DNA of 64,000 nucleotides from Sabellastarte sp. h YS-2021 (taxonomy: Eukaryota > Annelida > Polychaeta > Sabellida > Sabellidae), in contig OZ024936.1 of the NCBI GenBank assembly GCA_964017235.1, positions 57,153,028-57,217,027 on the forward strand, written 5' to 3'. Position numbers and translations under genes: made by a program. Shown here one piece after another: positions 635-63,100 of the stretch. A model generated the notes under the pieces. That model was given only the letters and a program-made list of their open reading frames with translations, was not told where the DNA came from and ran no database searches. The stretch's first letter is position 1; each line of letters starts with the position of its first letter.

Positions 635-3600
635 GTAATTGTTTTAATTGTAAGATTAAGTATTTGTACCATGTAAATGTGTGTGTAATATTTGAGGTTG
701 ATACTTTCTTCTGATGATTAGTGCTGGGAGTCGCCTCAATTTTCATGGTTAATTAAGCATCCATTTTTCCAAATGATGATTGAACCAAAATTGATTAAGT
801 TATTTCATAGTTGGTCATTGTACAACAAAACACTTTCTAGGAGGAAGTATATGTCAGTTTAATAGGAATTGTGGTATTTTCTAAATGCCTGACATTTAGT
901 GTCTACCAAAAAGGCTCACTTCTTGTGAATGTATCAGTAAACATGAACAAAAAGATCTATCAGTTTGTCAAATGTATCTGCCTAAAATAATTTGAATTTA
1001 CATGGGTATTCACGTATAGAAAAGTAAGATTTAAGATGAAAAGTCGACTATTACAAATTGTGAGTGACTGATCCTGATGGTACACTATTACCGAGGATAA
1101 ATCGAGCACAAATCTAATCATACACCAACTTTTTCTAATGCCATCTGTCATGTCACAGTAGTAGGCCTGTACGGATTCTGGTAATCTTTGAATTAGCGTG
1201 TTTGTGTATAGTGTTTATATGGATCAGTAATATATTCAAGGGAAGAAGTTTGGTAAATTATTAGGCATTTCTTGTACAGCAACACACTGTCAAGATGTAC
1301 AGATTCTCATAATAAGTAATAAGGTTGTGCTTCAAGTAGTTAATTAAGGTTATTTCTTTATTCTTTAATGAAAGGTCATGCATTCTTTACAGCTATGGTA
1401 ATAAGAAAACTAAGACTTTTTGTGACATATACATTGTAGTTGTGTGGGTTTTGTTTAAGGTACACATTTACAACCATCTCAGTTTACTGAAATCTGAGAT
1501 AAGTGATTGATGTTGTGAACACTAAATACCTGTTCTTAAATAGCAAACACTTAAACTTTTGGTGCAACAGCTCATTGTCATTTTAAAAAATTTCATGCTG
1601 AAAGTTACAACAACAAATGATTTTTAGACATGGAATTGATGAGTTTTCTAGTGACCAGTGATATTATGATGAAAATAGGGTTAGTAGAGGTGTGAAGAAG
1701 TAGTTGAGGCTTGCAAATTTCAGGAAAAGTCAATCCCAATTTTAAGGGTTGAGTGCTCGCTTATATATACAATATCATATTGAACTAGTTGCATTTTTAT
1801 CTAGTAAAATGTTAATAAGATACCTTGCTTACATTAAATCACATAATGCTCCATTTTAAACATGATATTCACTATTTTATGGTGACATCAACTAATTCCC
1901 ATGATTCAAGGATTTTATCTTTACATTATTTTGTGTACGGGAGCTGCCATATTGGAAGTTGTTTTCTGTCAAAGTGCATATTGAACATTGCGAGGGCTTG
2001 ATGTCAAGCTGAAGCTTCATCCATGAGGAATCAGCCCCATTTATTTGTACTTGTCACATCCCTAAAGATGAATTCTCTGAACAAATACCATCAATAAGTA
2101 TACTAATATTTAATTCTGAAAATGTTTTTTGTTTACCCAGTGACATAAAAAACAATGAGAAAACTATGAGTATTTCTAAGTAAGTTTGGACACTTGTTCG
2201 TCATTAGTTGGCTTGGACTCACACTCATAATGACTGTGTTGTAAAAACAGGAGGTGTTTAAACATAACTATACCAAAATAAAACAAAAAGCAAAAGTATA
2301 ATGAAAGAAATCTCCAAAAGTAATGTTTAAGCAATACATACATGACTTTGTTATACATCAAACAGTTTTGATAATGAAAATGAAACAATATGAAAATCTT
2401 TTGGGGACTTTTTACTGAAATATAATCCTGATGGTCTGATGACTTACATCTCCTAGTGTGTGAATGATGAGATATCTGAGTAATGTGGTGTGCATGTCTG
2501 TTTGATCACAGACAATTTTATATGATCAGTCATGTAAAAACGACCTTACCTTGTTCAAATTAACAAAATGTCCACACACTTTCACTAAATTTGTGCCATT
2601 TTTCATTGATCAAAGGAATTGTCACATTTTATATTTTGCTTGTGTCTGCCACCATGCATACAGGAAGTGGATATTTTGGTAGATACTAAACATTGAGATT
2701 TTTCAAACAACCAAAAATCTTACCAACTCCAGGAAAATGTATTAGGCTGTACAGAGCAACAAAACAGTAATATAAGGCAAAGTATCAATTGTGGCTTGAT
2801 CATTTTTATGTCATCACTCTGCGGCGTGGGCGTCCGCGTCCGCGTGAACAACTTCTTCTCCAAAACTACAAGGCCTAGAGACATGCTGTTTTTTTTAAAA
2901 GATACCTTATCTATCGAGGATGAAAAATTGTTCAAGACATGCAAATCTGTCTGTTCGTCTGTTTGCTAGAGACATTACAAGGGGGGTACCCCCACCAAAA
3001 GTGTGAAAATTTCAACTTTTTATCACAATTGTCTCAGTGACTATTGCAGGGATTTCTCTCATATCTTGCATATATGTACTAGGCCAGAGGTAGATTCTCT
3101 TGTGTGAGTATGAGACCTGGATCTGTCTTACTTTTTTTTAAATAAATTTTTTTAATAATTTTTAATGCATTAAAATTCATGAAATCATGCACTAAATCAC
3201 TTATAACTTCAAAAGTGTTGCATTTACAGCATTTTGTGAAAATATGTTGTTCAGCTACTTTTTTCATAGCTACAATATGGTGAGTAAGTTGGGTGTCTGT
3301 CTCAATAGCTAAGTGAGTAATAGCTACTTTTGGGCTTTTCAGTAACTTCCATTATGAGTAAAATCACTTGTAACTTAAAAACTATTGCATTTAGAGAATT
3401 TTGTATAAGTATGTTATTCAGCTACATTTGGGCCAGCTATAACATAGTGAAATTTCAGACCTGTAGCTCATGGCATAGCTGAGTAATAGCTACTTTTAGG
3501 TTATCACTGTTGAGTAAATCGCTTATAACTTGAAAACTATTGCATTTAGAGAATTTCATATAAATATGTTATTCAGCTACTTTTGGGTCAGCTATAACAT

Positions 3601-6600
3601 AGTAAAATTTCAGACCTGTAGCTCATGGCATAGCTGAGTAATAGCTACTTTTAGGTTATCAATGTTGAGTAAATCACTTATAACTTGAAAAGTGTTGCAT
3701 TTAGAGCATTTTGTTAACATATGTTATTCAGCTACTTTTTTCATAGCTACAATATGGTGAGTAAGTTGGGTGTCTGTCTCAATAGCTAAGTGAGTAATGA
3801 CTACTTTTGGGCTTTTCAGTAACTTCCATCATGAGTAAAATCATTTGTAACTTAAAAACTATTGCATTTAGAGAATTTCGTATAAATATGTTATTCAGCT
3901 ACTTTTGGGCCAGCTATAACATAGTAAAATTTCAGACCTGTAGCTCATGGCATAGCTGAGTAATAGCTACTTTTAGGTTATCACTGTTGAGTAAATCACT
4001 TATAACATGAAAACTATTGCATTTAGAGTATTTTGTTTCAATATGTTATTCACCTATTTTTGGGTCAGCTATAACATAGTGAAGTTTCAGACCTGTGGCT
4101 CATTTCATAGCTGAGTAATAGCTACTTTGAAGTTCTCACTGTTGAGTAAATCAGTTATAATTGGAAAACTATTGCATTTACAGAAATTTGTGCAAATATG
4201 TTATTCAGCTACTTTTGGGTCAGCTATAACATAGTGAAATTATAGACCTATAGCTCATGGCACAACTGAGCAATAGCTATTCTCAGGTACTGACTGTTGA
4301 GTAAATCAGCTATAACTTGAAAAATATTGCATTTGGAGTATTTTGTTAAAATATATTGTTCACCTACTTTTGGGTCAGCTATAACATAGTGAAATTACAG
4401 ACCTATAGCTCATGGCATAGCGGAGCAATAGCTATTTTCAGGTTCTCACTATTGAGTAAATCAGTTGTAGCTTGAAAACTATTGCATTTACAGTAGTTTG
4501 CTTAAATATGTTGTTCACCTACTTTTGGGTTAGCTATAACATAGTAAAATTTCAGACATGTAGCTCATTGCATAGCTGAGTAATAGTTCCTTTGAGGTTC
4601 TCACTGTTGAGTAAATCAGTTGTAACTTGAAAACTATTACATTTAGAGTAATTTGTTAAATATGTTATTCACAGAATTTTTGGTCAGCTATAACATAGTG
4701 AAATTGCAGACCTCTATGTCATGGCATAGCTGAGCAATAGCTACTTTCAGGTTCTCACTGTTGAGTAAATCATTGTATCCACTGGATAGCCGCAGTGTGT
4801 AGAGAGAGATTTCACCATTACTGCTCTGATGAAAAAAAATATTATAGCTAGCTTTCTTAAGTTTGCAGTATATATTAATAACCATAAAATGTTGTCTGGG
4901 AATATTTTTGGCCTCATTTTGAGAAACAAGATGGCCGCCACAGGTGTTTTTTGTCAGTCATGAAAAGTGCTTATATCTCCCTTATTATTGATCCTAGAGG
5001 TTTGGGATGATAAACCAACCTGTAGGAAATCATGGGGTGGGAATCTTTTGGTGTGGTCAGATTTGACCTTCAATGACCCCTCCTTCAAGGTCAAACAAGG
5101 ATAGCCAAACTTAAAAGTGCTTATAACTCGCTTATTATTGGTCCCAGAGGTTTGGGATGGTAAACAGACAGGAAATCATGGGCTGTGAATCTGTTGATAT
5201 GGTCCGATTTGACCTTGGAACCCTCCTTCAAGGTCAAATAAGGATAGCGAAAATTGAAAGTGCCTACGACTCGCTTATTATTGGTGACAGAGATTTGGGA
5301 TGGTAAACCATCCCATAGGAAATCATTGGCTCGGAATCTTTTGGTATGGTCAGATTTGACCTTTGGACCCCGCCTTCAAGGTCAAATGAGGACAGCCAAG
5401 CTTAAAAGTGCTTATAACTCATTTATAATTGGTCCTAGAGGTTTGGAATGGTAAACCATAGGAAATCATGGGCTGGGAATGTATTTGTGTGGTTAGATTT
5501 GACCTTAGACCCCTTCTTGAAGGTCGAACGAGGATATTGCATTTGTAGTATTTCTTTAAATATGTTTTAACCTATTTTTTACACTTAAACAATTACCTTG
5601 TTATTTTCCTTCATAATACCATTTACAGGGCACAACTTTTTTATCCTTTTCTTGTGTCAGCTTCGGAATTTCTTTCGAACTTGCTGCTCAGTTACCATTT
5701 ACTGTATTTCTGTACAGCCCTTTTCCTGATAATTATTCTGTCCTCTAATCACCTTCACAAATCAAAAACACTCAGTCAGCTGACACAGTGCCCGTTCACG
5801 GGCACTCTCCTCTTGTTTGAGGGGTGCCAAGGTGGCACAGTGGTAACAACACTTGACTCCCACCACTGAGATCAGAGTTCAAATCCCACCCTGACCTTAA
5901 GTGGGAAAGCTGGTAGTTGCTTGCTTTTTGTTGGCAATTTACAGTACAGAACCATGACCAACTGTATGTACTAGTGCTGCGCCGATTAGTGGTCCAATCG
6001 ATGTATTGATCAATGACGGCATTAATTTTGATGCATCGATCAAAAAACCAAAATTTGGGATGCCGAAAAAGGGTTGAGTTCTAGTATATTTCCAGTCAAA
6101 TCAAAGGAAAGAGGAAGTGATTTTCCGTAAAATAAAAATGGAGCAGTTTTTGTCCCAAAGATATCGCCTTAGAATTGTTGAAATGTACAAAAATATTATC
6201 TAAAAGTTTGGATTAGTTATTTACTCTGTAAGTTTTGTATGATTTTAATGTCTGACGATGCATCGAATGATGCATCAATCACATGTGGGCGATAATCGAG
6301 TGATTTTTGCGGACCGAGTCGCAGCACTAGTATGTACTGGTTTCATCTGCCCATGCACTACCCCTCACAATATAACCGATAAGGTATCAGGTGTGATGTA
6401 AAGCAATAAATATACAAATTAATCATTGTTTTGAAAATTGAATGTTAGCAATAATGGACTTTGCTGATAAAAAATCTGGTTGATTAAAATTTTACCAAGA
6501 TACCTCTACATAAGTTACTTTCATCATTAAAGTTTTCCTGTTTTGCACATGGGTTACCATTATCCGTGGCTGTGTCTTGTTCTATTTTTAGACACAGATG

Positions 6601-9600: not shown

Positions 9601-12600
9601 TATAGAAAGGACTTCCTATAGTGTTATATTGAAACTGAAAATATAACAATTTTTCTCTGATTTTTTTTTTCATTTATTTTCATATGGTTGATAAGCTAAT
9701 GTGCTGGAAGACATATAAGACATATCACCTTATTGAAGAAAGTCTTAACAATCTCCAGTTCCAAAGTTAAAAACCATGCGTAATTGGGACCTGTAAGCTA
9801 AAATATCTACACTGTTCTCCTAAGTGAACATCATTTCCTGCCAGATCATTTTCACCCAAATCAAGTTTGCAAAAATTTTGGGGAAGTTCGCATTTTCTCC
9901 ATGTCATTCCTGACCAGGTCAAGTTGGCAAAGTAGGACTTTCAGCCATAGTGCTACTATTTTTGCCGTCAACCCATCTGTTCACAAATCCAAAAACAATA
10001 TGAACACCAGTGTTTACTACAAGCTTCTTGTCTCTTTGTAAGATTACATAAGGATGGACCTCGGTACAATTCAGTTTTTGCACCTTGCAGGCTGTTAATA
10101 TAGAGGTTAAATGCTGTATAGACTCGTGATAAAGGTTACATTGATCAGAAGGACCTTGTCACTTAGGACTTGAAAGTATTAGTGAATTGGGGTGTATTCA
10201 ATTGACTATATGCATTTACAAGTACATAGTTTTACATGCAAATGACACACCTCATACTTATTCATAAACATAATACCGGTATCTGCATGTCATGCTTTGT
10301 GTGTAGAGTAAGAAATCTAAAATTCGCCACATATCTGAAATTCGCCACGTGTAAAAATACTAATAAAATAAATGAATTGTGGTGAGATTTGTTGAATGTA
10401 TAGTAAATTAAGGCTTTTTGAACTGAAAAATACCAATTTTTAGACAAAAACATCATTTTCTTCATAAAATTAACAAAGGTTTTAGAAGTGGCGAATTTTA
10501 GATTCCTGGCGAATTTTAGATTTCTTACTCTACATAGACTTTTTTCAGGATTGACTTATCTCATTGTTTATTTCTATTTCCTTCAGTGATTCCTTTGTGA
10601 TAAGTTCCTTTATGGGAAAATTTAAGTATGTAAAAACATTAAAGGAATTAGCAAAAGGATCATTTATATCTAGAATTGTAAACCTTCCGGAAATAAAACT
10701 AGAGGATAGAAATCTTATATTTCAATCACCCAGGTTGTGTTTCCCCTTTCATCGTTTCATAATATGTACTTGCTCAACCCTTAAAATATGCTTTCATTTA
10801 CACCCCTTAAAACACTTTGCTTGACTTCAGGAAATGGTGTGATTCACTGGAATATAATCTGTGTAATCTATCTAGTTCATCATTTAATACATCACTGCCA
10901 GCCAGTTTAAAGCTTGTTGGAAGAATTTATGATTTAAAATTTATACATCTGTTATTTGATTTCAAATTATTGGCCAATCAAAAATCAAGTGGAAGAAAGA
11001 AATGACTTTTCATTCCATGATTTTAATATGGATGAAAAAATATGTTGTACTTCCTTTTAAGTCAGAGTTGGGTCTCAATGTCACTCAACATCTTTTCTAA
11101 GTGTTTTTATTCAATATCTTTTATCTAACATAAATCAAGGCCATTGAAGCTTAGATCACTTTGTATATGCATGTGATTAATATGAAATGTAATGATAAAG
11201 TAACATTGAATTTCTTCCTTGTTTCTTTTTTGGCATGTTTTCATCATTTTCATGATTATTTCCTCCTTCTGTGTAATTAAGTTCATAATATATAATATTT
11301 CATGCTTGATCAATGCCAAATAGATTGAAATAGTTCTTTTAAAAGTCATATTTGCTAAAAGGGATGACATTTTAATTTCATTTGAGATAAATAACTTTTG
11401 CTTTATATTTTCACTATTGAACAGTGAACATGTTATAGTTTGTTAATATACTTAAACTTCCTTGTACTGGTGAAGTATATGGTTACAAAATGGTATTATC
11501 TAACCTATTTGACATTTATGTCTACAATTGTATAACTATACTGTAATTCTCTGAAATATGCCCCCAATTGTTTTTTTACCAAGTGCATGTTGTGTGTTTT
11601 ATTGATTATTTTTAAGATTAATTAATTATATTCAGATGTAAATTTTCCAAATTTAGTTATAAAATATAAAAATTTTTGAGTGAGTATTGTGAAGATCTAA
11701 TCACAGCCTTTTATCATATATCACCTCCATAGTAAGATGTATTAAAAACAACTGTTTTATGAAACATATCAGGAAGATTGAAAATAATGAAAAATGCTCT
11801 GTACTTTAGAGTTTTAATTATGTCCACCCCACTGGGGGGTGGACATATTATTTTTGCTTTTTCCGGCGTCCGGCGTCCCACTTGGTTTCCAGACATTTTA
11901 GGCAACAGTTCTTATCCTATCTTTACCAAATTTGGCATGCAGGTTTATTGGGTTAATAGCTTGTATGGGATTGCTTTTGGTGATGATAGCTTTATAGCTA
12001 ACTGAGTAATAGCTACTTTGCTACTTTTGAGTATCTCTTTGGTTTCCAGACATTTTAAGGAATGCTATTAAGCCTAGCTTTCTGAAATTTGGTATGGAGG
12101 TTCATTGGGTTAATAGGTTGTATGGGATTGCTTTTGGGGGGAATTGCTTCATAGATGAGTGAGTAATTAATTAAATAAATGAGTAATTGGCTATTTTGAA
12201 TACTGAAAAAGGCAAATGTGCTCATATCTCCTAAACCGTGCGAGATAGAGCGATTTCGTCGAAATTTTCGACCCACAGGGTATCTAAGGAATGTACTCTT
12301 TGCAATTTTCAAAAAATTTTCCCCTCCCCAAAAATGGCGGCCATTTTGAATTTTTGCCAAAAATGGCAAAACACAAATTTGCTTCTATCTCCTTAACCGT
12401 GCGAGATAGAGCGATTTTGTGGAAATTTTGACCCCCAGGATATCTAAGGAATGTAATCTTTGCAATTTTCAAAAAATTTTCCCCTCTCCAAAAATGGAGG
12501 CCATTTTGAATTTTTGCCAAAAATGGCAAAACACAAGTTTGCTTCTATCTCCTTAACTGTGCCAGATAGAGTGATTTCGTCGAAATTTTCGACCCACAGG

Positions 12601-15600
12601 GTATCTAAGGAATGTAATCTTTGCAATTTTCAAAAAATTTTCCCCTCCCCAAAAATGGCGGCCATTTTGAATTTTCGAATTTTTCCCAAAAATTGGCAAA
12701 ACACAAAATTGCTTCTATCTCCTTAACCGTGCGAGATAGAGGGATTTCGTCAAAATTTTCGACCTACAGGGTATCTGAGCAACGTACTCTTGGCAATTTT
12801 CAAAAATTTTCCTCTTCCCACATATGGCGGCCATTTTGAATTTTCGAATTTTTCCCCAAAATGGCAAAACACAAAATTGCTTCTATCTCCTTAACCGTGC
12901 GAGATAGAGTGATTTCGTCGAAATTTTCGATCCACAGGGTATCTAAGAAATGTACTCTTGGCAATTTTCAAAAAATTTTCCCCTCCCCACATATGGCAGC
13001 CATTTTGAATTTTCGAATTTTTGGCCAAAATGGAAAAACACAAATTTGCTTCTATCTCCTTAACCGTGCGAGATAGAGTGATTTCGTCAAAATTTTCGAC
13101 CCACAGGGTATCTGAGCATTGTACTCTTGGCAATTTTCAAAAATTTTCCTCTTCCCACATATGGCGGCCATTTTAAATTTTTCGAATTTTTGTCAAAAAT
13201 GGCAAAACACAAAATTGCTTCTATCTCCTTAGCTGTGCAAGATAAAGCGATTTCGTCCAAATTTTTAACCCATAGGGTATCTAAGAAATGTACTCTTGGC
13301 AATTTTCAAAAAATTTTCCCCTCCCCAAAAATGGCGGCCATTTTGAATTTTCGAATTTTTTCCAAAAATGGCCAAACCCAAATTTGCTTCTATCTCCTTA
13401 ACCGTGTGACACAGAGCGATTTCGTCGAATTTTCGACCCACAGGGTGTCTGAGCAGTGTACTCAGAAAAAAAATCAAAAAATTTTCCCCTCCTCAAAAAT
13501 GGCGGCCATTTTAAATTTTCGAATTTTTGGCAAAAATGGCAAAACACAAAATTGCTTCTTTCTCCTTAACCGTGCGAGATAGAGCGATTTCGTCGAAATT
13601 TTCGACCCGCAGGTTTTCTCAGAAATGCACTCCTTAGCAATTTTCAAAAAAATTTTCCCTCCCCAAAAATGGCGACCATTTTGAATTTTCGAATTTCTGC
13701 AAAAAATGTCAAAACACGAATTTGCTTCTATCTCCTTAACCGTGCGAGATAGAGCGATTTCGTCGAAATTATCAAGCAACAGGGTATCTGACCAATGTAC
13801 TCTTGGCAATTTTCAAAAAAATTTTCCCCTTTCCAAAAATGGCGGCCATTTTAAATTTTCGAATTTTTCCCAAAAATGGCAAAACACAAAATTGCTTCTA
13901 TCTCCTTAACCGTGTGAGATAGAGTGATTTCGTCGAAATTTTCGACCCACAGGGTATCTGAGCAACGTACTCTTGGCAATTTTCAAAAATTTTCCTCTTC
14001 CCACATATGGCGGCCATTTTGAATTTTCGAATTTTTCCCCAAAATGGCAAAACACAAAATTGCTTCTATGTCTTTAACTGTGCGAGATAAAGCGATTTCG
14101 TCAAAATTTTCGACCCATGGGGTATCTAAGAAATGTACTCTTGGCAATTTTCAAAAAATTTTCACCTCCCCACAGATGGCGGCCATTTTGAATTTTTGCC
14201 CAAAATGGAAAAACACAAATTGGCCTTAACCATGCAAAATAGAGTTATTTCGTTGAAATTTTCTACCCATAGGGTATCTAAGAAATGTACTCTTGGCAAT
14301 TTTCAAAAAATTTTCCTTTTCCCAAAAATGGCGGCCATTTTGAATTTTCAAATTTTTGCCAAAAATAGAAATTTGCTTCTATCTTCTTAACCATGCAAGA
14401 TAGAGTAATTTTGTCAAAATTTTCGACCCAACCAATGCAAAAAGGCATGAAGCTGAAATAATTTACATGTACACTAATAAATATTTAAGCATCATTGATA
14501 TATTTTACAAATGAAACAGGGTCTTGTAACACTACTGTACAAATTTGGCAAAAGGTTCATGGGGTGGACATTACACATGATAATGTGTGTTCTTCTATGC
14601 TATCCTCTCTTTCTATTCATATGTCGCAGCTACTATCAACAGGGCGTCCTATTTCTAGTTATTCATAGACCTGGGCCTGTATTCACGAAAGGTCTTAGCC
14701 AGGGCTTAGGCTTAAATATGAGACTTTTGTCTCAAGTTTCTGTCCAAAACCTGCTAAAAGTTTTGTCTTAGGCTGAGTGGTATTCACAAAGAATTTAAGA
14801 CTGGTCTTAGGCTTAGCCAAGGGCTCAACTTTAAGACTGGTTAGTAGTGGGCTTAAATTTTGTAAAGAGGACTTAAATATGGCCGCCATAAACTTTTCTC
14901 CACTTCAAAATTTGAAATGGCTGTAAATAAAGTATAATTATGCAGAACATCTCACTAAAGCAGTCTTTGGAAGTTTATATGTGGAAACAAGGTTTTCCAT
15001 TTCAAAACAGCACTTTTCCTTAGATAAAATATATTAAATGAATATATGTCACCAATAGTATAGTTGAATAGAAAAGAAAGGTCACATGACACAGAAAACC
15101 ACTGTGGTTATTTGATAATCTTGCACTTAGCTAAGTCACCCTTTGTGAATACGGTTTTAAGACAAAACTTAGCTGAGACAAAAGTCTTAACTTTAAGACT
15201 CGATTTAAGCCTAAGACCTGGCTAAGTCTAAGACCTTTCGTGAATACGGGCCCTGGGGCTGGTTTCACAAAGCCTCCGTTGGAAAGGACCTCCTTTAGTA
15301 AAGGAAGGTCATTAAGCGTCCCGCGAGGGATGCTTGTTTGTATACAGGAGAAGTGATTCTGTCGGATCAGCGTTTTCTTTTCGTAATAGCTTCGCAGCCA
15401 TAACGCGGATTCTTTTCATATTTGGCAAGTGTATGCAGTAGCCCTGGGAAATTTTTCTGAATATGCTGCGATGACATTTTTACCAATCAGAGAGGTCACA
15501 TGACCAACAATGTGTTTTTTGGTAGGGCGTCCTTGTATGGATGATAACCTATGAAGCATTTTATCTATCAACCTGAAATTTAGCAAATACCTTCTTCATA

Positions 15601-18600
15601 TAAAGATCTGGGCAACATTAAATTCTGGCAGGCATAGGTTAAGAAATGACTTGAGTTATTGATGATTAATTAAGCAGTAACAATTTTCTTAGCGAGTAAA
15701 ACACAAAACTGCTTGTATCTCCTTAACCGTGTGAGATAGAGCGATTTCGTCAAAATTTTTGACCCACAAGGTATCTAGGTAAACTCTCCCCCAAAAATGG
15801 GGGTCATATTCAATTTTTGAATTTTTGACAAAAAATGCAAACCACAAAATTGGAAATATAGGCTCATGAGGTACACATATAGGATAATACTGATATATGA
15901 GTACTTTTTGAAACCATTTTCTTCATAAAATAAAAATTTACTAGTGGGATTTCGGCAAAATTTTTGACCCACAGGGTATCTGTGAAGACTAGCCTTTCCA
16001 AGTTTCAGCAAATATTTCACTTGCCAAAAATGGTGGCCATTTTGAATTTTCAAATTTTTAAAAAAAAAATCTTTGTATCTCGAAAACCGTGCTAGATAGA
16101 GTGATTTCAACGAAATTTTTGACCCATAGAGTACCTCTTCTGAGTAGCTGACCCAGTTTTCACAAATTTTTTTTCCCGCCAAAAATGGCGGCCATTTTGA
16201 ATTTTCGAATTTTTTGCAAAAATCGCAAAACATAAAAATGCTTGTATCTCGAAAACCGTGACAGAGCGATTTCGGCATATCGGCAAAATTTTTGACCCAC
16301 AGGGTATCTGTGAAGTCTAGCCTTTCCAAGATTCAGTGAATATTTCACATGCCAAAAATGGCGGCCATTTTGAATTTTCAAATTTTTTTCAAAAATTCAT
16401 AACACAAAAAATGCTTGTATCTCAAAAACCGTGCTAGATAGTGCAATTTCGACAAAAAGTTTTGTCCCACCAAAATTGGCGGCCATTTTGAATTTTTCGC
16501 ATAAATTGCAAAACACATAAATAAATCTCGAAAACCGTGGCAGATAGAGTGAATTTGGCAAACTTTTTGACCCACATGGTTTCAAGGAAGATTTCACTCG
16601 CCAAAAATGGTGGTCATTTCTTTGGATATGTAAGCAAACTACTCTACCCAATTTTTCCAAAAAAATTTACCCTTCCCAAAAATGGGGGTCATTGTCAATT
16701 TTCAAATTTGTGACCAAAAGTGCAAAACACCAATTTGCTTCTATCTCCTTACGCGTGCAAGATAGAACAATTTCATCAAAATTTTTGGAACACACTGTAT
16801 CCAAGCTAACTACCCTACCCAAGAACTACTTTTCCTATATTCTGGCTATAAGCAGAACTTTCTTACATCATGATTAAGCTGCCATTATTTCTCCTTTTCG
16901 GGCTTTGTTTTGCAAGCGATCCTCTATTTTTTATTCCTTTGGGAAGGCCACCTTAAAATTCAGTTTCACAAATCCTCCTTTAACTCTCCTTACTAAAGGT
17001 CTTCCCTGTAACTTAAGGAGGGAGCAAATGTTCATTAAAGTAATTACACATTCCTTGATTTATTTATTTATTTGGGGTTTTACGTCGCTTTCAACACTGT
17101 ACAGGTCATATCACGACGGGTAGTTGGAAGGCACACATTCCTTGAAGGACACCCTTAAATTTAAGGTAGATCCTTAGCTTCCTTGAAATTTAAGGGATTT
17201 GTCAAGGCCTCCTTTAAGGAAGGAGGCTTTGTGAAATTGAAAATTTTTAAAGGAGGGAGAAATTCAAGGAAATCCTTGAATTTAATGTGAGATTTATCTT
17301 AACGAGGCTTCGTGAAACCAGCCCCTGTTCTTCTGCATTTGCAAATATTATTATTATATCCCTGGACAAAAGTCCGGGGAGTTACTGGATTCAGCTTTGT
17401 TGCACTGCTGCTGCCGCCGTAGAAATTTCCTTGTTTTTCTAAACTTTTAGGTCCGTGGAGTCATTTTGAACTATTATTAGAGTAAGGAATCTAAAATTTG
17501 CCAGCTCTAAAATCTTACCTAATTCAATGAAAAAATTATGTTTTGTCTTAAACTTGGTATTTTCAGTTCAAAAAGACTTAATCTACAAGACATTCAACAA
17601 TTCTCACCTCAATTCATATCATTAAATAAGTATTTTAACATGTGGCGAATTTCAGATATGTGGTGAATTTTAGATTTCTTACTCTATATAGAAATTACAG
17701 TATAAGTGGTGGTGTCTTGCACTAGCTGAATAATTTAACGTTGGCAATATTTTACTTATTTTTGGTGTTTAACTCGAAGTGAGTGTTTAGTCTTTCTGTT
17801 TTATTAGCACTTCATACACTTCATCAGTCACACCAGATTAAAACCTTTTGTTCTTTAGTAGCATTTTATCAGTGAATTTTTTTATGTTGATATGTGGCTG
17901 AAACAATCTGAAATGTACTGTTATATGTATTTTAAAAGTGCATACAGTAAGAAATGTGAGATTTCACCACAGTCTGTGAAATACCCCAGTGAGGAAACCG
18001 TCTCCGTCCTTTGATTTGTTCTTGACATATTTGTGATTTTTGTGATTGTACAAGTGAAAGTACCCTTGTTTATGCAGATGTGGCTTGCATTTATTTGTTG
18101 TACTTTTTTCGTGGTAAATAAATAAATTAACATAGATAATACAATTTCTTTAAATTGGCTATAACTTCCTTGTTTGTGGTTAGATTTCAATAATTTTTTC
18201 ACCATTGTGTTCAAGCTTGAAGCTTGCGGTAAAATTTGGTCCCTGACGGAGAATTAACACAACCCACACTCACAAGCAGCATCGGCAAGCCGTGTACATG
18301 GAAACGCACCCCTATAACCAGACCATTAGAATATCAAAGCTGAAACACTGCTGTGAATATGTATGTTGTAAATTAAACACATCATGTGTTTGTCACTGTC
18401 CCTTCATACAATACAGAAACATCAAGCTAAATTCACCAAACTGTTTCAACAGATTAAATCAAGTTGACAGGTCAGAGAGCATCCAAAATCACTCATTCCT
18501 CAGTCAAATGTAGTGCTTTTATAATTAGCAAACATCCTAACAACATTAATTTACATATCAAAGCTGTGAATATACATGTTCTGTCCATATGAAAGTTGTC

Positions 18601-42182: not shown

Positions 42183-42205
42183 TTAAGTGGCTTTTGAAAG
42201 GGATA

Positions 42206-45625: not shown

Positions 45626-45639
45626 AATCATTGTATCCA

Positions 45640-47735: not shown

Positions 47736-47741
47736 CTCTAC

Positions 47742-48656: not shown

Positions 48657-48659
48657 TTA

Positions 48660-50963
48660 CACAACATGCCATATATCAAATGTTTTTTTCATTGTCAATA
48701 TTTATTTATTCAATAAAATATCTTTAACTCAGTTTACCATAACAACTCAAGTATAGCCTCAACCATTTTTCATGTATTTTTTTTAACATTTTCAGTGTGA
48801 AGTCATTATTTAATATTCTCCTATAGACACTCAACAAAACTTTGAAAATACATTGCTATGCATTCATCAGAACTTCTATCAGCCCAAAAAAGATACACAT
48901 GTTGTATCATTTTAACTCAGATAAACAATTTACCTATGTAGACACTGTTATAAAGTACGACAATAAAGGGCTTGGCGTTTAAATGAACACAATCAAGTTG
49001 AGATCATAATCGTTAAAAGTAGACATCATTTGGCATAAACAAATAACATAAATTGAACATTTTAGCACCCCTTCCCCCAATACGCGGGGAATGAGTAATT
49101 GAATAAGCAATAATATGAAGCACCTATATAATGGCAACCATAAAAGCACATCTGATTTTCTTCTTGTCCAATGTAAATATTCTCGAAAAGTAAAAGGTTA
49201 ATTTGAATGGTTGGAATTTAGAGGGAAATGTTTTAATTAATATACATACAACCACTGATGTAAGGTACATGTGAGAACTACTTCCACTTTGTAACTTATA
49301 CTGTTTGTCAAAATGACAATTTAATACCAATTCTTATAAGTTTTTGGTGCAAATCTAAAATTCATTGTCATGTAATTACAATAATAATAATAAAACATTT
49401 TATAAATTTAGGTTTACTTTTGCAGTACCAGATATTAAATTAAAACCCTAATGATAATTTGGAACATTTTCAAAAGAAAAAACATCAAATGTGCTTTTAT
49501 GGATTCATCAAATCTAAAGTAACAATTTCCTATTAACCAGTTACAAAACACCAGCAAAAGCTACACAAACACAATCTTCAACAGATGAAACACCTACAAC
49601 TTCATCAAAGATTCTCCTGGTTTTTGTATTTTTTTTCCAGAAAAAAAATAACTGATATGTGAGCTACAGAAATATTCAACAAGAAACATCACAAAGACTT
49701 ATGATAAAACCCATACCTTGGAAATTGTAGAGTAAAAATTCTAAAATTTGCCACATGTTAAAATACTAAAAAAAAATAAATAATAAATAAATGGGAGACA
49801 AAATTGATTGTAAGTAGATTAAGGTTTTCTGAACTAAAAATATCAGCTTTAAGACAAAACACCAGTTTATTCCTAGAATTTACTAGGATTTCAGAGGTGG
49901 CAAATTTCAGATTTCTGGCAAATTTTAGATTCTTTACTCTAATGGCATTGAGATTCGTGTGTATTTCAGTAAAAAAAATAATATTCAATTGTATTACTTT
50001 GCAAAAATCTACTTCATTCAACCAGATTGATCACAGTGCAATATAAGACTACCTAGGCAATGCAATACCATATTGTTCACAACAATGGGACAAGTATAAA
50101 TTAATTTAAAAAAAATATAAACAAGACATCAAATTTGAACCATACATGTTTAACAAAAACACAAAAATATAGTCCCAAAAACTGTTACCAAAGTTTTTTG
50201 CATTAGGCATTTGTCTAGATTCTATCTGACATGAGAAATGTGATAAATCAACAAGTGAAACAAAAAGTTAATGGTTAACTAAAATTTTTAGGAACACATT
50301 TAAACTTTTAACTGTAGTAATTAGTTCATAGCAGATTCCATTCACAGATGTTGTATAACTTCTATGCTTGTAGTCTGTCTAAAGACCAGTTGCTTTGACA
50401 AACTAACTAGTGGACTGAATACTGCTGAGACATAGAGCACTAGATGTCAAATTCAACTTTAAAATAAAGACAATAATATATCCACAATTTATACCAATGT
50501 TTCTTCAGGGGAGACCACGGGCCATTTTAGGCTTCAGTTGGCTATATGTGTATACAAAAGTTAAGCCTAAGACTTGACCTTTCGTGATACCTGCCCCAGA
50601 TGCTTAAAGTAGTCACAGAAATCACAAATGTATTGAGAATGTTATTCTGAAGAATTCTCACACTTTTATTGGATCAATAGATATCAACCGACGATCTCAT
50701 TTAAAATCTACAGAAAAAAGTCTTTCTCATTTCTGATCCAATTTACATAGAAAATTCACCAGTGTTTTTGGTTTACAGAGGGGTTGTATCCAAGGCTATT
50801 TATCTGACAGTGTTTGGTACATGCAGCCCTTTACATGTAATGAATATTTCTATCTTCATCAAAATGACAGACTCTAATATGGTGCTAATATTTAAGTATA
50901 AACTTTTAATCCTAATAAGATGATCACATTTAGATACTTTCTGCTAAGTTGATGTCAATCAGT
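48660..50963 (-). other. Region downstream of PYCR, possible 3' UTR, with a MITE relic
   Basis: Little repeat content apart from the MITE at 49730. TTTATT words (AATAAA on the minus strand) near 48703-48715 could serve as a poly(A) signal, but no position is decisive. gacttgacctttcgtgatac near 50570 is a foldback-element remnant. Confidence 0.35.
49730..49939 (-). mobile_element. 225-bp-family MITE, diverged copy (210 bp)
   Basis: gagtaaaaattctaaaatttg to agattctttactc with TA flanks. Substitutions and deletions make it one of the older copies. Confidence 0.7.
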
Positions 50964-51158
50964 TTATCTATGGTTGTAGTCTGTCCCTATCTCTGTAGAA
51001 CGCTGGGTTCCTGCTTCCACAGCATCCACCAGGGCACCACGGAAGCCGGCCTTCTCCAGCTTGTGTAGGGCGTGAGCAGAGGTTCCAGCAGGAGAACAGA
51101 TATCATCTTTCAACATCTCAGGATGTTGCTTGGTGTCGAGGATCATCTTTGCAGCTCC
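50964..51158 (-). CDS. PYCR terminal exon (P5CR signature and stop)
   Basis: Acceptor tctaattcag precedes GGAGCTGC at 51158; stop TAA at 50966-50964. Encodes residues 163-226: GAAKMILDT, LKDDICSPAGTSAHALHKLE, GFRGALVDAVEAGTQR, then a short polar end. S189 sits where many family members have the substrate-contacting Thr after PGG; this is a conservative change. Confidence 0.9.
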   Translation of the reverse strand, partial: GAAKMILDTKQHPEMLKDDICSPAGTSAHALHKLEKAGFRGALVDAVEAGTQRSTEIGTDYNHR

Positions 51159-54100
51159 CTGAATTAGAAAATAGCATCAGAGATGCCCGTACCCCACAGC
51201 CTGGGGAAATAGTTTTCAACACCACGAAATATAGAAGTAGTGAAACAGTACAAAGATCTGGATACCTTCAGAGCAGTGTCAGTTATATAAAGCTCCAAAT
51301 AATGTTTAAGTAGAGAAAATAACATCTAAAAGAAAGAAAGTGTATTTAAAGATAAAGTATTAAATCAAGACATTGCAATAGCAAGATGACAACATTAATC
51401 AGTAAACTAAAAATTACAAAGCCATAAATTTTATTAATTGGAGTATAGCTGTCGATAGAAATAGCACAATTATACAAAAGTACATAAACTAATCAATTGC
51501 AACAATCTATATTTCTTTGTCATAAGTGAAACATGTTTCAAATCTTGCAAATGAACACACGTTGGCAGAGCCAAAGTTAAAGATCCTACCATGATGCACA
51601 CCTACACCCCCTAACCAATGTCCCTATCTAATGTCAACCTTCTACACCTTACCGAATCCAATAAATAGCCCGGACAAGATTTTATAGGTCAAGGTCACTA
51701 TGACAAGGTCAAATCAATGGTCACACCATAACGTTGCACACCTACAACCCCTAACCAATCTCCCTACCAAGTGTCAACTTTCTACATCTTAAAGTTTCTG
51801 AGATATAGCCCGGACAAGATTTTATATGTCAAGGTCACTACAGCAAGGTCAAAGTTCAAATCAAGGTCACACCATGACGTTGAACACCTACAACCCCCAA
51901 CTAATATCCCTACCAAGTATCAACTTACTACACCTTACAGTTTCCAAGATATACCCCGGACAAGATTTTATAGGTCAAGGCCACTACGGCAAGGTCAAAG
52001 GTCAAATCATTGCTTGACAATGAGCCAGCGAGCGATAATACCGAAGTTTGCAAACATCGTCCCAGCACTAATTGAGGTTATAGTATTGTACCTAAAACAT
52101 GGCAGTTCTCAATGTAATTGCTTTAAAAGTCTGCAAATGCATGAAAATATGGAATCAAAGCTGATAATTTCTTCAGATTTTGGGTATGTTTCTGATATTT
52201 CAACTCTTCCTTCCATTATATGTGTTGACAAATGAAGTTGCGGTTGTAAAATCTCATCACAGTATTTCAGTAAAATGCTCGTGATACCGAGACAATTGGC
52301 CTACGAACTCTTCCCTAGTAAAATATATATTCAAGATGTTCTATGGTCATTCACCCTAAGAGGTGACCATAAAGTCAATGTGTTCAGTTTATTTTTGTTA
52401 AAACTCTTGATTGAGGATAAAAGAGGCATTGCAACATGGTTGTCTTTGCCAATGGAAAGTATAGAGCCTTTTGATGTTGCCAACACACCACTCCCTGAGT
52501 TACATGAACTTAACAGCACAATCTTACTCAATTACTTGAGCTATACAAATGTTATATTAAAAACACTAAATTTATTTTATTGATTCTATTTGTTTTAATA
52601 AATGCCAATCTCATGGTTTAATGTATTGTTTTGTATCACACTAAACCTCAAGGTCACATTCTAATTGTAAGGTCACACTTTATTAACTGTAGTATTTGTC
52701 ACATACCAACATGCTCATAGCAGCCAGACGAGTAGACTGGTCTCTGTTCAAACCCATCTTCACTCCTCCATCTGCCAGAGCCTGGATAGCTACAAAACCC
52801 TGAAAACAAAGAGATATTCAACTGGCAATTAAGGCTTCAGACTATCTTATTTACTCCTTGTTTCTGATGAAAAGCAAAACGTAAACATCCATCGCTTACA
52901 CTGAAAGCAAGTTCATTTCAAATACTAATATTTCAAAGGCTTTAAAGAGTAAGGACACTTGCTTGTTGTACTCTTGTTGATTTGCACTGAAGAAGTTCTG
53001 AGGACTCCATATATTTTGGGCTCATCGGCTTCACTGTGAAAAGGAGTGTCACTTTCTAGCTATTGTTCCTGCATTTTAAATGGCAGTTAATAACAGTAAT
53101 TATAATAATATTCAGTGTAACAATGTGTTAGTTAAATCTTATGGGAGCCACAAAAGCATTTCTACTTTATCTGGCATTTCAGACAAAAGGAAAAACATAA
53201 ATGGAAATGATAGTCCCTTGGTTTCTCAAGATTAAACTTGTTTCTGGTCCAGCATGGTTTTTATAACTATTATTCTGGTTGTTTAAGATTCTGCATGCTA
53301 CACAATAAATGGTTGTATTCACAAAGGTTTAGTGTCTTACAAAGATTGTTTCTTTGATTTTAAAGAATCTTCAAAGATTTTTAACAAAATCCAACTCAAA
53401 CAGATTTGTTATTATGTAGAAAGAAAAGTGTGTGCACTAAATATACAGAACTATCAACTGTTTATTGAATTTTCAAACTTTTGAATAGTAATATGCCTAT
53501 ATATTAAACTACTGAGTAATTAAAAAGATTTTTGGTAAGAAAGAATAATTCTTAAAATTAAATAAAGGAAAAATATTCAAAGTTAATGAAAAATCTTCAA
53601 GAATATGGTCCTAGACATCTTCATACAACAATGAGCTCTCTAAACAAACTGTGTCATTGCAAGGGAGGACAACTCATCTTTCTGGTGATTTGAGGGTTTT
53701 ACATCCTGTTCAACAGTCAGGGTCATACTAGGACACTTCCTCAGCATTGTCACTTGTAGGAGTCAAACCTACGAACAGCGTGACAGCCTGTGATTAGATG
53801 CCAAACCTGCTAACTCACTAGGCCACCAAGGACCTTCTCATTCCACTTTGGGCAGATCACATGATTTATCTTCACAGGTATGTTGCACTACTAGTGACCA
53901 AATACCATAAAGGTCTGTACATACTGAAGTGATCTCATAGGTTCCATTACAATGCATTCAGATAGATACATCATTTAGTATTGGCTCTCCATATTAATTG
54001 TAAGAGTAGATCATCTTTTATCATCAGTAGTGAATAAGTGTAAATTTAGAGATTACTTACATAAGCAGGACCATTTCCACTGAGTCCTGTTACAGCATCC

Positions 54101-57100: not shown

Positions 57101-60100
57101 ATAATGGCCAAAATTTATACAAAACATGTTCATCAAGCATTATGCAAGATCCAAGGCTATAACTCAAACTGGACCAAGTGCTACCAGGACGGTATACATA
57201 GACAAGACAGTCCCGTAGTAGTGAAAAAATGGCAGAAAGTGTTCAAAAATGAACAAACAAAACCGGCAGATTTGAAAGTTATTCTGGTCTGAATTCTGTA
57301 TGAATATACTATTAGAGTGTTTCTGTGGATGTTTTACTTTTGGATGGAAAATCATATACAGTAGATTTGGTGTAAGTAGAACTGCCATAAGTACAATATT
57401 GCCATAAGTAGAAATAGTTTCTAAGTCCCAACAATAATTAATGCAAAATATAAGGATAAGTAGAAGTTCGACTTACAGAAAGTTGCCATAACTAGAACCT
57501 AATTTGATGCACAAAGTGTTACTTTTCAATGGGAATAACAAGGTATAAGTAGAACCTATACATTTTGTGTATACAGAAATGTAAATATCCAAGAAAGAGG
57601 TGACCATAGTACCATTGTGACACTCTGTCTGATTTCTCACTTTTGTGTTATTGAGTCTGAACACCAAGCAAACTAGAAATAGGCCGCCCTGTTGATAGTA
57701 GATGCGAATAGAAACAGGATAGCATAGAAGAACACACATTATCATGTGTAATGTCCACCCATGAACCTTTTGCCCAAATTGTACAGTAGTCTTACAAGAC
57801 CCTGTTTCATTTGTAAAATATATCAATGATGCTTAAATATTTGATAGTGTAGATGTAATTTATTTCCGCTTCATGCCTTTTTGCATTGGTTGGGTTGAAA
57901 ATTTTGACGAAATCACTCTATCTTGCACGGTTAAGAAGATAGAAGCCAATTCCTGTTTTTCTATTTTTGGCAAAAATTTGAAAATTCAAAATGGCCGCCA
58001 TTATTGGGAAAAGGAAATTTTTTTGAAAATTGCCAAGAGTACATTTCTTAGATACCCTATGGGTCGAAAATTTCAACAAAATAACTCTATTTTGCACGGT
58101 TAAGGCCAGTTTGTGTTTTTCCATGTTGGGCAAAAATTCGAAAATTCAAAAGGGCTGCCATTTTTGGGGAGGGGAAAATTTTTTGAAAATTGCAAATATT
58201 ACATTCCTTAGATACCCTGTGGGTCGAAAATTTCGACGAAATCGCTCTATCTGGCACGGTTAAGGAGATAGAAGCAAATTTGTGTTTTGCCATTTTTTGC
58301 AAAAATTCGAAAATTCAAAATGGCCGCCATTTTTGGGGAGGGGAAAATTTTTGGAAAATTGCAAAGATTGCATTCCTTAGATACCCTGTGGGTCGAAAAT
58401 TTCGACGAAATCGCTCTATCTCGCACGGTTAAGGAGATAGAAGCAAATTTGTGTTTTGCCATTTTTGGCAAAAATTCGAAAATTCAAAATGGCCGCCATT
58501 TTTGGGGAGGGGAAAATTTTTGGAAAATTGCAAAGATTGCATTCCTTAGATACCCTGTGGGTCGAAAATTTCGACGAAATCGCTCTATCTCGCACGGTTA
58601 AGGAGATAGAAGCAAATTTGTGTTTTGCCATTTTGGGCAAAAATTCGAAAATTCAAAATGGTCGCCATTTTTGGGGAGGGGAAAATTTTTTGAAAATTGC
58701 AAAGATTGCATTCCTTAGATACCCTGTGGGTCGAAAATTTCGACGAAATCGCTCTATCTCGCACGGTTAAGGAGATAGAAGCAAATTTGTGTTTTGCCAT
58801 TTTTGGCAAAAATTCGAAAATTCAAAATGGCCGCCATTTTTGGGGAGGGGAAATTTTTTTGAAAATTGCAAATATTACATTCCTTAGATACCCTGTGGGT
58901 CGAAAATTTCGACGAAATCGCTCTATCTCGCACGGTTAAGGAGATAGAAGCAAATTTGTGTTTTGCCATTTTTGGCAAAAATTCGAAAATTCAAAATGGC
59001 CGCCATTTTTGGGGAGGGGAAAATTTTTGGAAAATTGCAAATATTACATTCCTTAGATACCCTGTGGGTCGAAAATTTCGACGAAATCGCTCTATCTCGC
59101 ACGGTTAAGGAGATAGAAGCAAATTTGTGTTTTGCCATTTTTGGCAAAAATTCGAAAATTCAAAATGGCCGCCATTTTTGGGGAGGGGAAAATTTTTTTG
59201 AAAATTGCAAATATTACATTCCTTAGATACCCTGTGGGTCGAAAATTTCGACGAAATCGCTCTATCTCGCACGGTTAAGGAGATAGAAGCAAATTTGTGT
59301 TTTGCCATTTTTGGCAAAAATTCGAAAATTCAAAATGGCCGCCATTTTTGGGGAGGGGAAAATTTTTGGAAAATTGCAAAGATTGCATTCCTTAGATACC
59401 CTGTGGGTCGAAAATTTCGACGAAATCGCTCTATCTCGCACGGTTAAGGAGATAGAAGCAAATTTGTGTTTTGCCATTTTTGGCAAAAATTCGAAAATTC
59501 AAAATGGCCGCCATTTTTGGGGAGGGGAAAATTTTTTGAAAATTGCAAATATTACATTCCTTAGATACCCTGTGGGTCGAAAATTTCGACGAAATCGCTC
59601 TATCTCGCACGGTTAAGGAGATAGAAGCAAATTTGTGTTTTGCCATTTTTGGCAAAAATTCGAAAATTCAAAATGGCCGCCATTTTTGGGGAGGGGAAAA
59701 TATTTTGAAAATTGCAAAGATTGCATTGCTTAGATACCCTGTGTGTCGAAAATTTTGCCGAAATCGCTCTATCTCGCACGGTTAAGGAGATAGAAGCAAA
59801 TTTGTGTTTTGCCATTTTTGGCAAAAATTCGAAAATTCAAAATGGCCGCCATTTTTGGGGAGGGGAAAATATTTTGAAAATTGCAAAGATTGCATTGCTT
59901 AGATACCCTGTGTGTCGAAAATTTTGCCGAAATCGCTCTATCTCGCACGGTTAAGGAGATAGAAGCAAATTAGTGTTTTGCCATTTTTGGCAAAAATTCG
60001 AAAATTCAAAATGGCCGCCATTTTTGGGGAGGGGAAAATTTTTGGAAAATTGCAAAGATTGCATTCCTTAGATCCCCTGTGGGTCGAAAATTTTGCCGAA

Positions 60101-63100
60101 ATCGCTCTATCTCGCACGGTTAAGGAGATAGAAGCAAATTTGTGTTTTGCCATTTTTGGCAAAAATTCGAAAATTCAAAATGGCCGCCATTTTTGGGGAG
60201 GGGAAAATTTTGGGAAAATTGCAAAGATTGCATTCCTTAGATACCCTGTGGGTCGAAAATTTCGACGAAATCGCTCTATCTCGCACGGTTAAGGAGATAG
60301 AAGCAAATTTGTGTTTTGCCATTTTTGGCAAAAATTCGAAAATTCAAAATGGCCGCCATTTTTGGGGAGGGGAAAATTTTTTGAAAATTGCAAATATTAC
60401 ATTCCTTAGATACCCTGTGGGTCGAAAATTTCGACGAAATCGCTCTATCTCGCACGGTTAAGGAGATAGAAGCAAATTTGTGTTTTGCCATTTTTGGCAA
60501 AAATTCGAAAATTCAAAATGGCCGCCATTTTTGGGGAGGGGAAAATATTTTGAAAATTGCAAAGATTGCATTGCTTAGATACCCTGTGGGTCGAAAATTT
60601 TGCCGAAATCGCTCTATCTCGCACGGTTAAGGAGATAGAAGCAAATTAGTGTTTTGCCATTTTTGGCAAAAATTCGAAAATTCAAAATGGCCGCCATTTT
60701 TGGGGAGGGGAAAATTTTTGGAAAATTGCAAAGATTGCATTCCTTAGATCCCCTGTGGGTCGAAAATTTTGCCGAAATCGCTCTATCTCGCACGGTTAAG
60801 GAGATAGAAGCAAATTTGTGTTTTGCCATTTTTGGCAAAAATTCGAAAATTCAAAATGGCCGCCATTTTTGGGGAGGGGAAATTTTTTTGAAAATTGCAA
60901 ATATTACATTCCTTAGATACCCTGTGGGTCGAAAATTTCGACGAAATCGCTCTATCTCGCACGGTTAAGGAGATAGAAGCAAATTTGTGTTTTGCCATTT
61001 TTGGCAAAAATTCGAAAATTCAAAATGGCCGCCATTTTTGGGGAGGGGAAAATTTTTTGAAAATTGCAAAGAGTACACTCCTCAGATACCCTGCGGGTCG
61101 AAAATTTTGCCGAAATCGCTCTATCTCGCACGGTTAAGGAGATAGAAGCAAATTACTCAAAAGTAGTACTGAAAATACACAATGAAGTACCTAAATGGCT
61201 ATTACTCATGTACTGACAAAGCTATCAGTCCCAAATGCAATACCAAGCGAGCTATGGACATAACAATCTTGTATTCAAAATTGTAGTAAAATATCTTTAA
61301 TTATTTTGGCTTAAATGCACGGAAACCAATGGGTACTGAAAATAGCTGTACTTAAGTATTACTCAGTAAGCAAAAGAGGTACAACAGCCAAAAGCAATCC
61401 CAAGCAAGCTACTGACCCAATAAGCCTGCATACCAAATTTGGTGACAATAGCTCTAATACTTTTCCTTTAAATGAGCGGAAACCATGCGTGACGCCGGAC
61501 ATCGGACGCCGGACGCCGGACGCCGGACATCGGACATCGGACATCGGACATCGGACATCGGACGGCGAAAAAAGCAAAAATAATATATCCACCCCCCAGG
61601 GGGGTGGACATAATAAATTTCACAGTAGAGTGATCACACAAGCGTTAATTATTGCAAGAGACTTAAATTACATAGTGTATCTAGTACTTCATATATTACT
61701 CAAAGTGGGTATAACTAGAAGTTGCCATAAGTAGAAGTAAATGGCTGACATTTTGCAACTTCGACTTAGACCAAATCCACTGTACTATAAGGTGGAATTT
61801 GGACAACTTGGTCCCTATATAAACCCAAACCTTTTATATCGGACAAACACAGCACATACACTCTGTTCACTTACACCATAAACTTAGCTTCATTATGCCA
61901 CAAACTCGGCCTTTTAGAGGTACCAGTCTATTATCACCAAAGTAGAATCTTCACCAAATTATCACAAAAATATGTTTACTGATGTTTCACAGATGTTATG
62001 TCACATAGAAATGAATAATGTAAAATATAGTTGTAACTTGTAAGTCCATTTTATTTTTAAAGATAAAGAAGAATACACAGCATACATATATATAATCTAG
62101 CTCTAGATGTTAGACGGGGAGAAGGAGATGTTGTCCCATCAAGAGCTAGTTACCATCTCAACTTCCAGAGAATGGATGTTTATTCCTCTGCTTCTGAATA
62201 CCTTCTGAAGACCAAGGGAGTAGCTATCTGTATTTCTGTAGCTTGGGTGGTGGCAGAGTTCAGATAAGTTTATATAGGTAAGTTAGGGTAAGCTCAAACA
62301 GAAGAGTTAAGGTGATAAGTTGTTTGAAAGATTGTCATTAACATTCAAGATCAAAAGGTAAATGTAAGGTCAGGTCATATTACTTAATCAGTGAGAAATA
62401 AAGAATGAATGTAAGTTACTCTATTAGATAAGGTCAACATAAATAATATAGATAAACAGAATGAAAATCAGAGTGAAACATGAGTTGGTAGTGGACATGG
62501 GTGAGCAGCCAGAGTTAATTAGCACAGCATCTGTGTTGCATTCCAGAGAAGATGGTAGATCCAGATGTTAAAATGCATCCAAGATGAAACTCCTTATCAG
62601 TGTGTAGTGAAGTTCTGCTGAGGCTTGTCCATAGCTATTATTATAATTCTTTGTTTTGAAGCAGTGGATCTGACCAATTGTCATAAAAATACTTGAGATG
62701 AATAGTAAGATTAATTAAAAACTGAACTCTGTTACACTATATAGTCCTCTGGTGCCTTTATCATGAAGGGGTCTATTTAGTATTGGTTGGACCGACTTTG
62801 CAGGGCCAGGGTAGAGGTGAATCTGAAAAGATTGAATGGATCTTTCTAAAATTTACTATGTAAATCCGGACCATGAGAAGAATTCATTCTATGTCAGGAT
62901 AGATTTGGATCATGTCCTGCAAACTCTTCTACACTGGCAGAGGTCTGCACTCTGTGAGTGCTTCCTAGTCACACTTCAAGTACCTTTTCTATGGTCTGTG
63001 TGGTGATTCCTGCTGCTATGGACACGATGAGGTTCTTCTTGCTGACCACCTCGGTCACTTCCTCCAGTATCTCCGGCACAATGTATGGTTTGACTGATAG

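Follow-up and report, generated by a model that had tools for sequence, protein, structure and literature searches.

Array-carrying non-autonomous Helentrons (HINEs) are a kind of element already known from the oyster Crassostrea gigas. In the sections of PMC7492417 drawn on here (the other articles cited below are likewise used in part), Cg_HINE elements possess a 5′ subterminal inverted repeat (subTIR) with its inverted copy, a microsatellite-like leader (GTCY; GTCC in several) and central arrays whose consensus monomers measure 138-181 bp and share one orientation, some elements having two arrays; a 3′ subTIR, a palindrome and a TT target without target duplication complete them. Helentron-Mo and HINE-Mo of a mite, together with Culex and Drosophila pairs, possess palindromic subTIRs, a 3′ stem-loop and a TT target with variable Ts, and their HINEs are deletion derivatives of elements encoding Rep, PIF1 and an apurinic/apyrimidinic (AP) endonuclease, with tandem repeats in some copies (PMC4067079). 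Short arrays of ~160-bp repeats between conserved ends are also described for Pearl, CvA/CvE/CvG, MgE and DTC84 of bivalves (PMC7492417, PMC11136912), which we liken to the present elements by description. Here we analysed a 64,000-base stretch (the window, C14:57153028-57217027) of a 1.786-Gb eukaryotic genome and found elements that share these features. They are, very probably, several families of satellite-array-carrying HINEs, one of which, H1, has an autonomous parent.

Elements were located in the window by Tandem Repeats Finder (TRF) combined with reading of the sequence, and families were named by their terminal words (A, GTCAGCTGAC; B, TGTCCACCCC; C, TATCCACCGG; D, TTATCTCC; E, AAGCGTCCC; H1, AGGCGGGTTG). 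We found at least 11 Helentron-like copies or fragments of families A-E, H1 and H3, and these 11 cover 19,115 of the 64,000 bases (counting the H3 fragment as 51580-52009; it extends to 51162). Where both ends survive, they share one blueprint: a 5′ palindromic word is followed by a GC-rich leader and an array of ~143-169-bp units, and the word recurs on the 3′ side, where a 3′ stem and then CT(A/T)G precede a T. The 3′ word matches the right arm of the palindrome at the 5′ end, either perfectly or with 1-2 mismatches, A2 and D being imperfect. The 3′ stem is strong in A, B and C, and that of E was seen by eye, without folding, in a copy outside the window (L049). Together with a T-rich target, the empty sites described below and an endonuclease-type Helentron of the same blueprint in this genome, these subterminal words and stems bear out the Helentron-associated nature that an earlier note on this DNA had proposed. 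For H1 the Helentron reading is correct; for A-E it is correct on structural grounds, and these families are assigned as putative HINEs from that structure alone.

A genome-wide profile search with Pfam PF14214 revealed at least 24 Rep loci, of which 10 were read as 20-kb regions and 14 as stretches of 3.2-3.4 kb. L006, L007 and L009 turned out to be one element, H1, with a length of 12,270-12,829 bases, 99.31-99.35% identity, common ends and different flanks; L004 is a fourth copy, cut at both ends. A search of the ten regions for a hairpin, a repeated word and a 3′ stem had missed H1 because its stem is weak, and it was found with a relaxed stem. From its 5′ side, H1 consists of a T-run, a AGGCGGGTTG-cgtgtaac-CAACCCGCCT palindrome, a GTCC-rich leader and an array of 164-187-bp units, followed by another palindrome, leader and array, then 3.7 kb and the coding part, after which come CAACCCGCC, a weak stem and CTCTTG. 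The coding part of L007 forms a single open frame, which at 2,245 codons exceeds every other open Rep frame in the ten regions. When scanned as two adjoining pieces, it contains Helitron_like_N (1.7e-25), DUF6570 and PIF1 (1.9e-28), and thus joins a Helitron_like_N-type Rep and a PIF1 helicase in one frame as a Helentron does. Its C-terminus matches Exo_endo_phos (E 3.5e-5, 24.1 bits), which we count as the C-terminal AP endonuclease although the match falls just short of Pfam's threshold; homologous C-termini occur in L001, L002 and L014. Rep motif 2 of H1, VEFQHRGSPHLH, has an S between G and P, fitting the Helentron signature (PMC4067079). The other Rep loci share ~24-47% amino-acid identity per BLAST segment with the H1 protein. 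As a separate observation, the Rep motif reads RGWPHI in L008 and L012 versus RGSPHL in H1, and the genome may accordingly hold Helentron-like lineages off the published signature.

Each full H1 copy contains two 5′ ends and one 3′ end (5′ ends at L006:309/1077, L007:617/1217 and L009:71/835, in coordinates of the 20-kb regions). As this composite occurs at three places with different flanks, it seems to have moved as a unit. Plant Helitron arrays likewise combine several 5′ ends with one 3′ end (Xiong et al. 2016, via PMC12628747); the 5′ ends of H1 differ in being separated by a satellite-like array, and the composite in recurring at three places.

A derivative of H1 straddles the left edge of the window. 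Its 3′ part, at 1-193 (+), comprises an array unit, the CAACCCGCC word, a weak stem and a CTCTTG end, and the remainder is found in the adjoining 2.4 kb on the left side (L049), where its 5′ end lies at ~L049:2196-2201, ~200 bp outside. In total, it amounts to ~397 bases. Retained from H1 are the 5′ end with its leader, some two array units and the final 38 bases (at 94.7% identity); all H1 sequence between the array units and those 38 bases is missing. The derivative therefore shares both ends with an autonomous Helentron, and stands to H1 as a HINE stands to its Helentron, with the array retained. The earlier note had suggested looking for an autonomous Rep/helicase element with identical termini, and for H1 such an element exists. 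By contrast, the 10 autonomous C. gigas Helentrons could not be related to Cg_HINEs (PMC7492417, in the sections used), whereas H1 and its derivative share ends and array type. Set beside the pairs of PMC4067079, both H1 and L001 carry an array between the leader and the Rep of the autonomous element. We found no satellite-carrying HINE linked to an autonomous Helentron in molluscs in the open-access literature searched.

Next, we examined insertion sites, as the earlier note had advised. The complete C-family element C1 (33311-34490, +; GTATCCACCGGAggcaTCCGGTGGATAC ... GTGGATAC, stem GCATTGGttctCCAATGC, GTCTAG) sits inside a miniature inverted-repeat transposable element (MITE), whose left half is at 33180-33310 (+) and whose right half follows 34490. 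Empty relatives of this MITE are present in the window, for example at 37637-37821 (+). Searching the window with the joined flanks gave 11 spanning matches; one of them, at 69% identity, was left out and the other 10 were aligned. Nine of these show TTA or ATA followed by TTTTATT at the site, and the copy at 17507 has diverged there. The filled site reads TTATT-GTATCC...CTAG-TTTTATT. The H1 copy L007 is inserted in a 159-bp array, and its empty site was obtained from three overlapping array stretches in its left flank. Compared with the empty sites, C1 has 2 and L007 has 3 extra Ts, and nothing beyond Ts is duplicated in either. The difference fits variable terminal Ts (PMC4067079) better than one fixed duplication. 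TT follows all 15 of the A-E 3′ ends read (8 of A, 2 each of B, C and D, and 1 of E), a tally that omits the degenerate E1 end and in which the search pattern forced the first T in four A ends. For H1, T comes next in 4/4 ends and TT in 2/4. Insertion is thus T-rich or at TT, as in HINEs. The MITE itself has ten copies (window 10302, 17507, 23432, 29468, 29952, 30843, 37637, 41574, 55819 and 63280), with 29468, 29952 and 30843 close together; by eye, its ends resemble TAGAGTAAGAAATCTAAAATTCGCC.

We then collected 3′ ends genome-wide, another check suggested in the earlier note, and this yielded copies in the thousands for each of three families. Patterns of 30-38 bases were matched on both strands with at most 3 mismatches, and the same patterns reversed served as control. 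A gave 4,791+4,842 = 9,633 ends, B 4,613+4,726 = 9,339 and H1 1,729+1,525 = 3,254, against 0 in each reversed control, which excludes chance for these three. When the complete blueprint was scanned for blindly, the two window strands together yielded 10 hits, and 12 shuffled windows yielded 0 or 1 apiece. The scan is too insensitive to be a good test: of the 10 hits, C1 alone is a true element in full, and those of A, B, D and E escaped it. In a separate observation, four same-strand B 3′ ends at G000:C1:17090929-17104986 lie ~4,673 bases apart, suggesting that whole B elements are arrayed in tandem there.

Family A reveals how a second array can enter an element. A1 (2803-5815, +), whose 5′ palindrome is deleted and whose 3′ end, AGTGCCCGttcaCGGGCACTCTCCTCTTG, is intact, carries a 155-bp array that halts at ATT-GTATCCACTGGATA, a C-family 5′ end with its hairpin deleted. 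The nested 5′ end and leader occupy 4777-4960 (+), and 165 bases align to the leader of C1 with a score of 112 (1,000 shuffles: mean 33, maximum 58). A C-type array of 143-147-bp units follows, and then a partial 155-bp unit again (score 62, no shuffle control). A2 (42855-46716, +) has an intact 5′ palindrome, a 155-bp array, a 146-bp array and a CTCTTG 3′ end; its left junction is as in A1, with the C leader deleted. We read this as a C element that may have entered the array of A, lost its own 3′ end and travelled on within A. Compared with two-array Cg_HINEs, the second array of family A is here traced to a nested HINE of another family. In L049, a D 3′ end closes an array of another type, of 133 bp (by eye). 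Leader and array had been proposed to be exchangeable modules. For arrays this holds in particular cases, with array exchange supported by one clear nested case (C in A), and it is not the whole story, as the autonomous H1 and L001 carry arrays too. A core-bearing array (the core is described below) lies upstream of Rep on the same strand in 6/10 regions (L001, L005, L006, L007, L009 and L014, with a single core hit in L014; in L001 a 5′ palindrome and leader precede the array), and is absent in L002, L008, L013 and the cut copy L004. Arrays are therefore not just cargo of derivatives, yet not universal. In C. gigas, such structures nest in other elements, and one element can hold different arrays in different directions (PMC12628747, as far as the sections used describe them), so nesting per se is not new and fixed orientation not universal.

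These observations are consistent with a rolling-circle scheme in which Rep would nick at the T-run, peel off and copy one strand, starting at the 5′ end and finishing at the 3′ stem, and the copied strand would be pasted into a new T-rich site. Arrays would change hands when an element inserts in the array of another and the composite is later moved from its outer ends, as the junctions in A, which carries a C element, and the second 5′ end inside the array of H1 suggest. For A-E, separate Helentron lineages probably exist or once existed.

We also compared the arrays with one another. Among the 45 pairs that 10 monomers allow, a shuffle z-score of 3 is reached by 10. In each of these the same-strand score exceeds the opposite-strand score, the orientation relative to an element being known for all monomers but two (x145 and x159). 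One of the other pairs, A155/AC147, scores higher on the opposite strand (30 vs 20). A core of ~40 bases, (T)TATAWCTCgaAAACcrt..gaGATAGAgcgATTTc, is common to nine array families when aligned by eye at TATCTC/TAACT(C/T). In a held-out test, in which each family and its near relatives were left out of the profile and 500 shuffled monomers served as control, the best match fell at the aligned place in 9/9 families, and in 8/9 just 0-8 of the 500 shuffles scored as high. The x145 array failed (257/500 shuffles as good), and in A155 the opposite strand also scores well (3/500). The core is absent from two 157-bp arrays (L008:18140 and L005:9861) and from the 108-bp array at 38926. With the full profile, the window contains 82 hits scoring at least 16, all within elements and on the element's strand, and 0 outside; most window families contributed to this profile, the independent hits being the five in E1. 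Among the fetched regions, all four H1 copies contain one opposite-strand hit apiece within their coding part, and several hits were left without assignment to an element.

Mean divergence of the core is below that of the rest of the monomer in 10/14 arrays. Its rank among monomer windows is unremarkable in 13/14, the exception being a 133-bp L008 array (rank 3/133), and this makes no case for selection. Sharing of the core may reflect ancestry, exchange or function. The BIV160 and Cg170 satellites have two conserved motifs in common (PMC5139131), and the core may be one of these. Comparison with BIV160 was confined to two published primers in 40 primer-monomer-strand tests, 5 of which reached at most 9/300 shuffles; the D monomer is matched by both primers (4/300 and 1/300), but on one and the same strand, contrary to what a primer pair requires.

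The earlier note attributed all families to the same unseen Rep/helicase. Such an enzyme, for example that of H1, would have to recognise structure (palindrome, 3′ stem, CTNG-T) rather than the word, and a layout and target common to all families, a CTCTTG end in both A and H1, and the length of the open H1 frame (2,245 amino acids) speak for it. The words and leaders differ between families, however; H1 has end words of its own and a derivative bearing them; the other Rep loci diverge from the H1 protein to the extent given above; and none of the 10 Rep regions read as 20 kb has A-E termini on both sides. Elsewhere, two mite HINE subfamilies are each linked to their own partner at 84-99.9% identity, and a Culex HINE family is termed novel (PMC4067079, in the sections used). 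One shared enzyme is not supported by these data, and we consider it unlikely. Far less probable still, in our view, is that cut-and-paste transposase moves these elements as MITEs that hold satellites by happenstance. They are short and non-coding, with inverted words and a high copy number, and the related DTC84 is labelled a MITE in the part of PMC5139131 consulted. But their inverted words lie subterminally, the 3′ word has the 3′ stem on its outer side, C1 and L007 have no fixed target duplication, and the autonomous relative of H1 type encodes Rep, PIF1 and an endonuclease-like domain, so that for H1 and C the MITE explanation is already disfavoured.

The arrays could also be ordinary satellites, unrelated to the element and captured many times independently by Helentron ends; capture as such is discussed in PMC7492417. 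That 35/45 monomer pairs fall below z 3, that the core is missing from two 157-bp arrays, and that arrays inside C. gigas Helentrons can run in different directions (PMC12628747) would agree with repeated capture. It is at odds with the core-bearing arrays that H1 and L001 hold between 5′ palindrome plus leader and Rep, and with the window core hits all lying on the element's strand, including those in E1, which was outside the profile; we regard it as doubtful. At the other extreme, the core could be a working cis-element, kept on one strand between 5′ leader and Rep while Reps diverged to ~24-47% identity, the satellite being constitutive and nesting swapping its versions. This is a tentative idea, and one that we do not expect to prove right.

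Several results weigh against the reading that we prefer, namely satellite-carrying HINE families with an autonomous parent for H1. No A-E termini were found on both sides of a Rep in the 10 regions of 20 kb, the other 14 of 24 loci having been seen as 3.2-3.4 kb. The H1 frame is whole only in L007 (1/4), being broken in L004, L006 and L009, and its Exo_endo_phos match lies 0.4 bits below the Pfam cut-off (24.5). The 3′ stems of D and H1 are weak. Empty sites are confined to C1 and L007, with none for A, B, D or E, and from C1 alone a 2-bp TT duplication cannot be told from Ts borne by the element. Finally, in H2 (L002 and L008), a further type among the Rep loci, Rep is not preceded by a core-bearing array, and the ends of H2 could not be defined. 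The H2 tail contains a reversed array and, in L008, a TATCCCC palindrome, which we read as a nested element. For B, L005 offers only a lead to a partner: half a B palindrome, a B leader and a B array precede a broken Rep by ~2.3 kb, all on one strand, and no B 3′ end was found after that Rep. As a side observation, L008:18507 (-) and L005:9803 (20-kb regions) hold another type of HINE, whose palindrome is TTGTATCCCCgacgcaaagCGGGGATAC and whose 157-bp array lacks the core.

The remaining window elements follow the same plan to differing degrees. B1 (11817-14658, +) has the word TATGTCCACCCC, a 169-bp array, a 3′ GGGGTGGACATTACACATgataATGTGTG and a CTAG end, and B2 (57673-61614, -) a 169-bp array of 19 units. 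D1 (36036-37345, +) has a 148-bp array, the 3′ word GGGAGATA, a weak stem and a GGTCTTG end. E1 (15314-~16926, +) begins with AAGCGTCCCgcgaGGGATGCTT and contains divergent repeats uncalled by TRF and a degenerate 3′ end. These four, with A2 and C1, lie at or within a few bases of where the earlier note had placed elements of this blueprint. Its element at 2801 exists as A1 with an intact 3′ end, but without the 5′ hairpin described for it, and what it listed as a 5′ end at 15311 is real and more than that, as copies outside the window (L048 has a 5′ end, L049 a clean 3′ end) establish E as a full family. Its 5′ end at 17351 was not confirmed as an element. Here we found a 5′-end-like palindrome alone (F, 17357-17388, +), with no second copy of the word within 6 mismatches in the DNA searched, no 8-base copy in 17001-20000 besides the palindrome itself, and neither the 3′ word (sought downstream to 20000) nor the 3′ stem and end of a HINE. 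Four copies were absent from that list: the H1-type element ending at 193, the C-family 3′ part C2 (20934-21244, -), the A-family 5′ end A3 with leader and array scrap (25986-26401, +), and the H3-type fragment (51162-52009, -), which contains a 146-bp array and two pieces of the array-to-Rep stretch of the L001 element.

Two further observations concern the surroundings of these elements. An array of 54/108-bp units at 38926-39500 (TCTGGAATTCCCAGTTAAGTGG...) has neither the core nor recognised ends. Putative exons were seen by eye at window 473-637 and ~21600-21700 and at L049 ~1948-2016, which may belong to a RING-type ubiquitin ligase, and at window ~50960-51160 (-), which may come from a pyrroline-carboxylate reductase. 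If these exon readings are right, several of the elements sit in introns.

Array-spreading elements of the oyster have been known as HINEs without an autonomous link; here, near-identical 12-kb Helentrons and a ~397-base derivative supply that link for H1. This makes it testable whether satellites begin inside autonomous Helentrons and whether nesting gives rise to double-array elements. Should the core indeed act as a cis-element, the satellite would be a constitutive part of the transposon and not its cargo.

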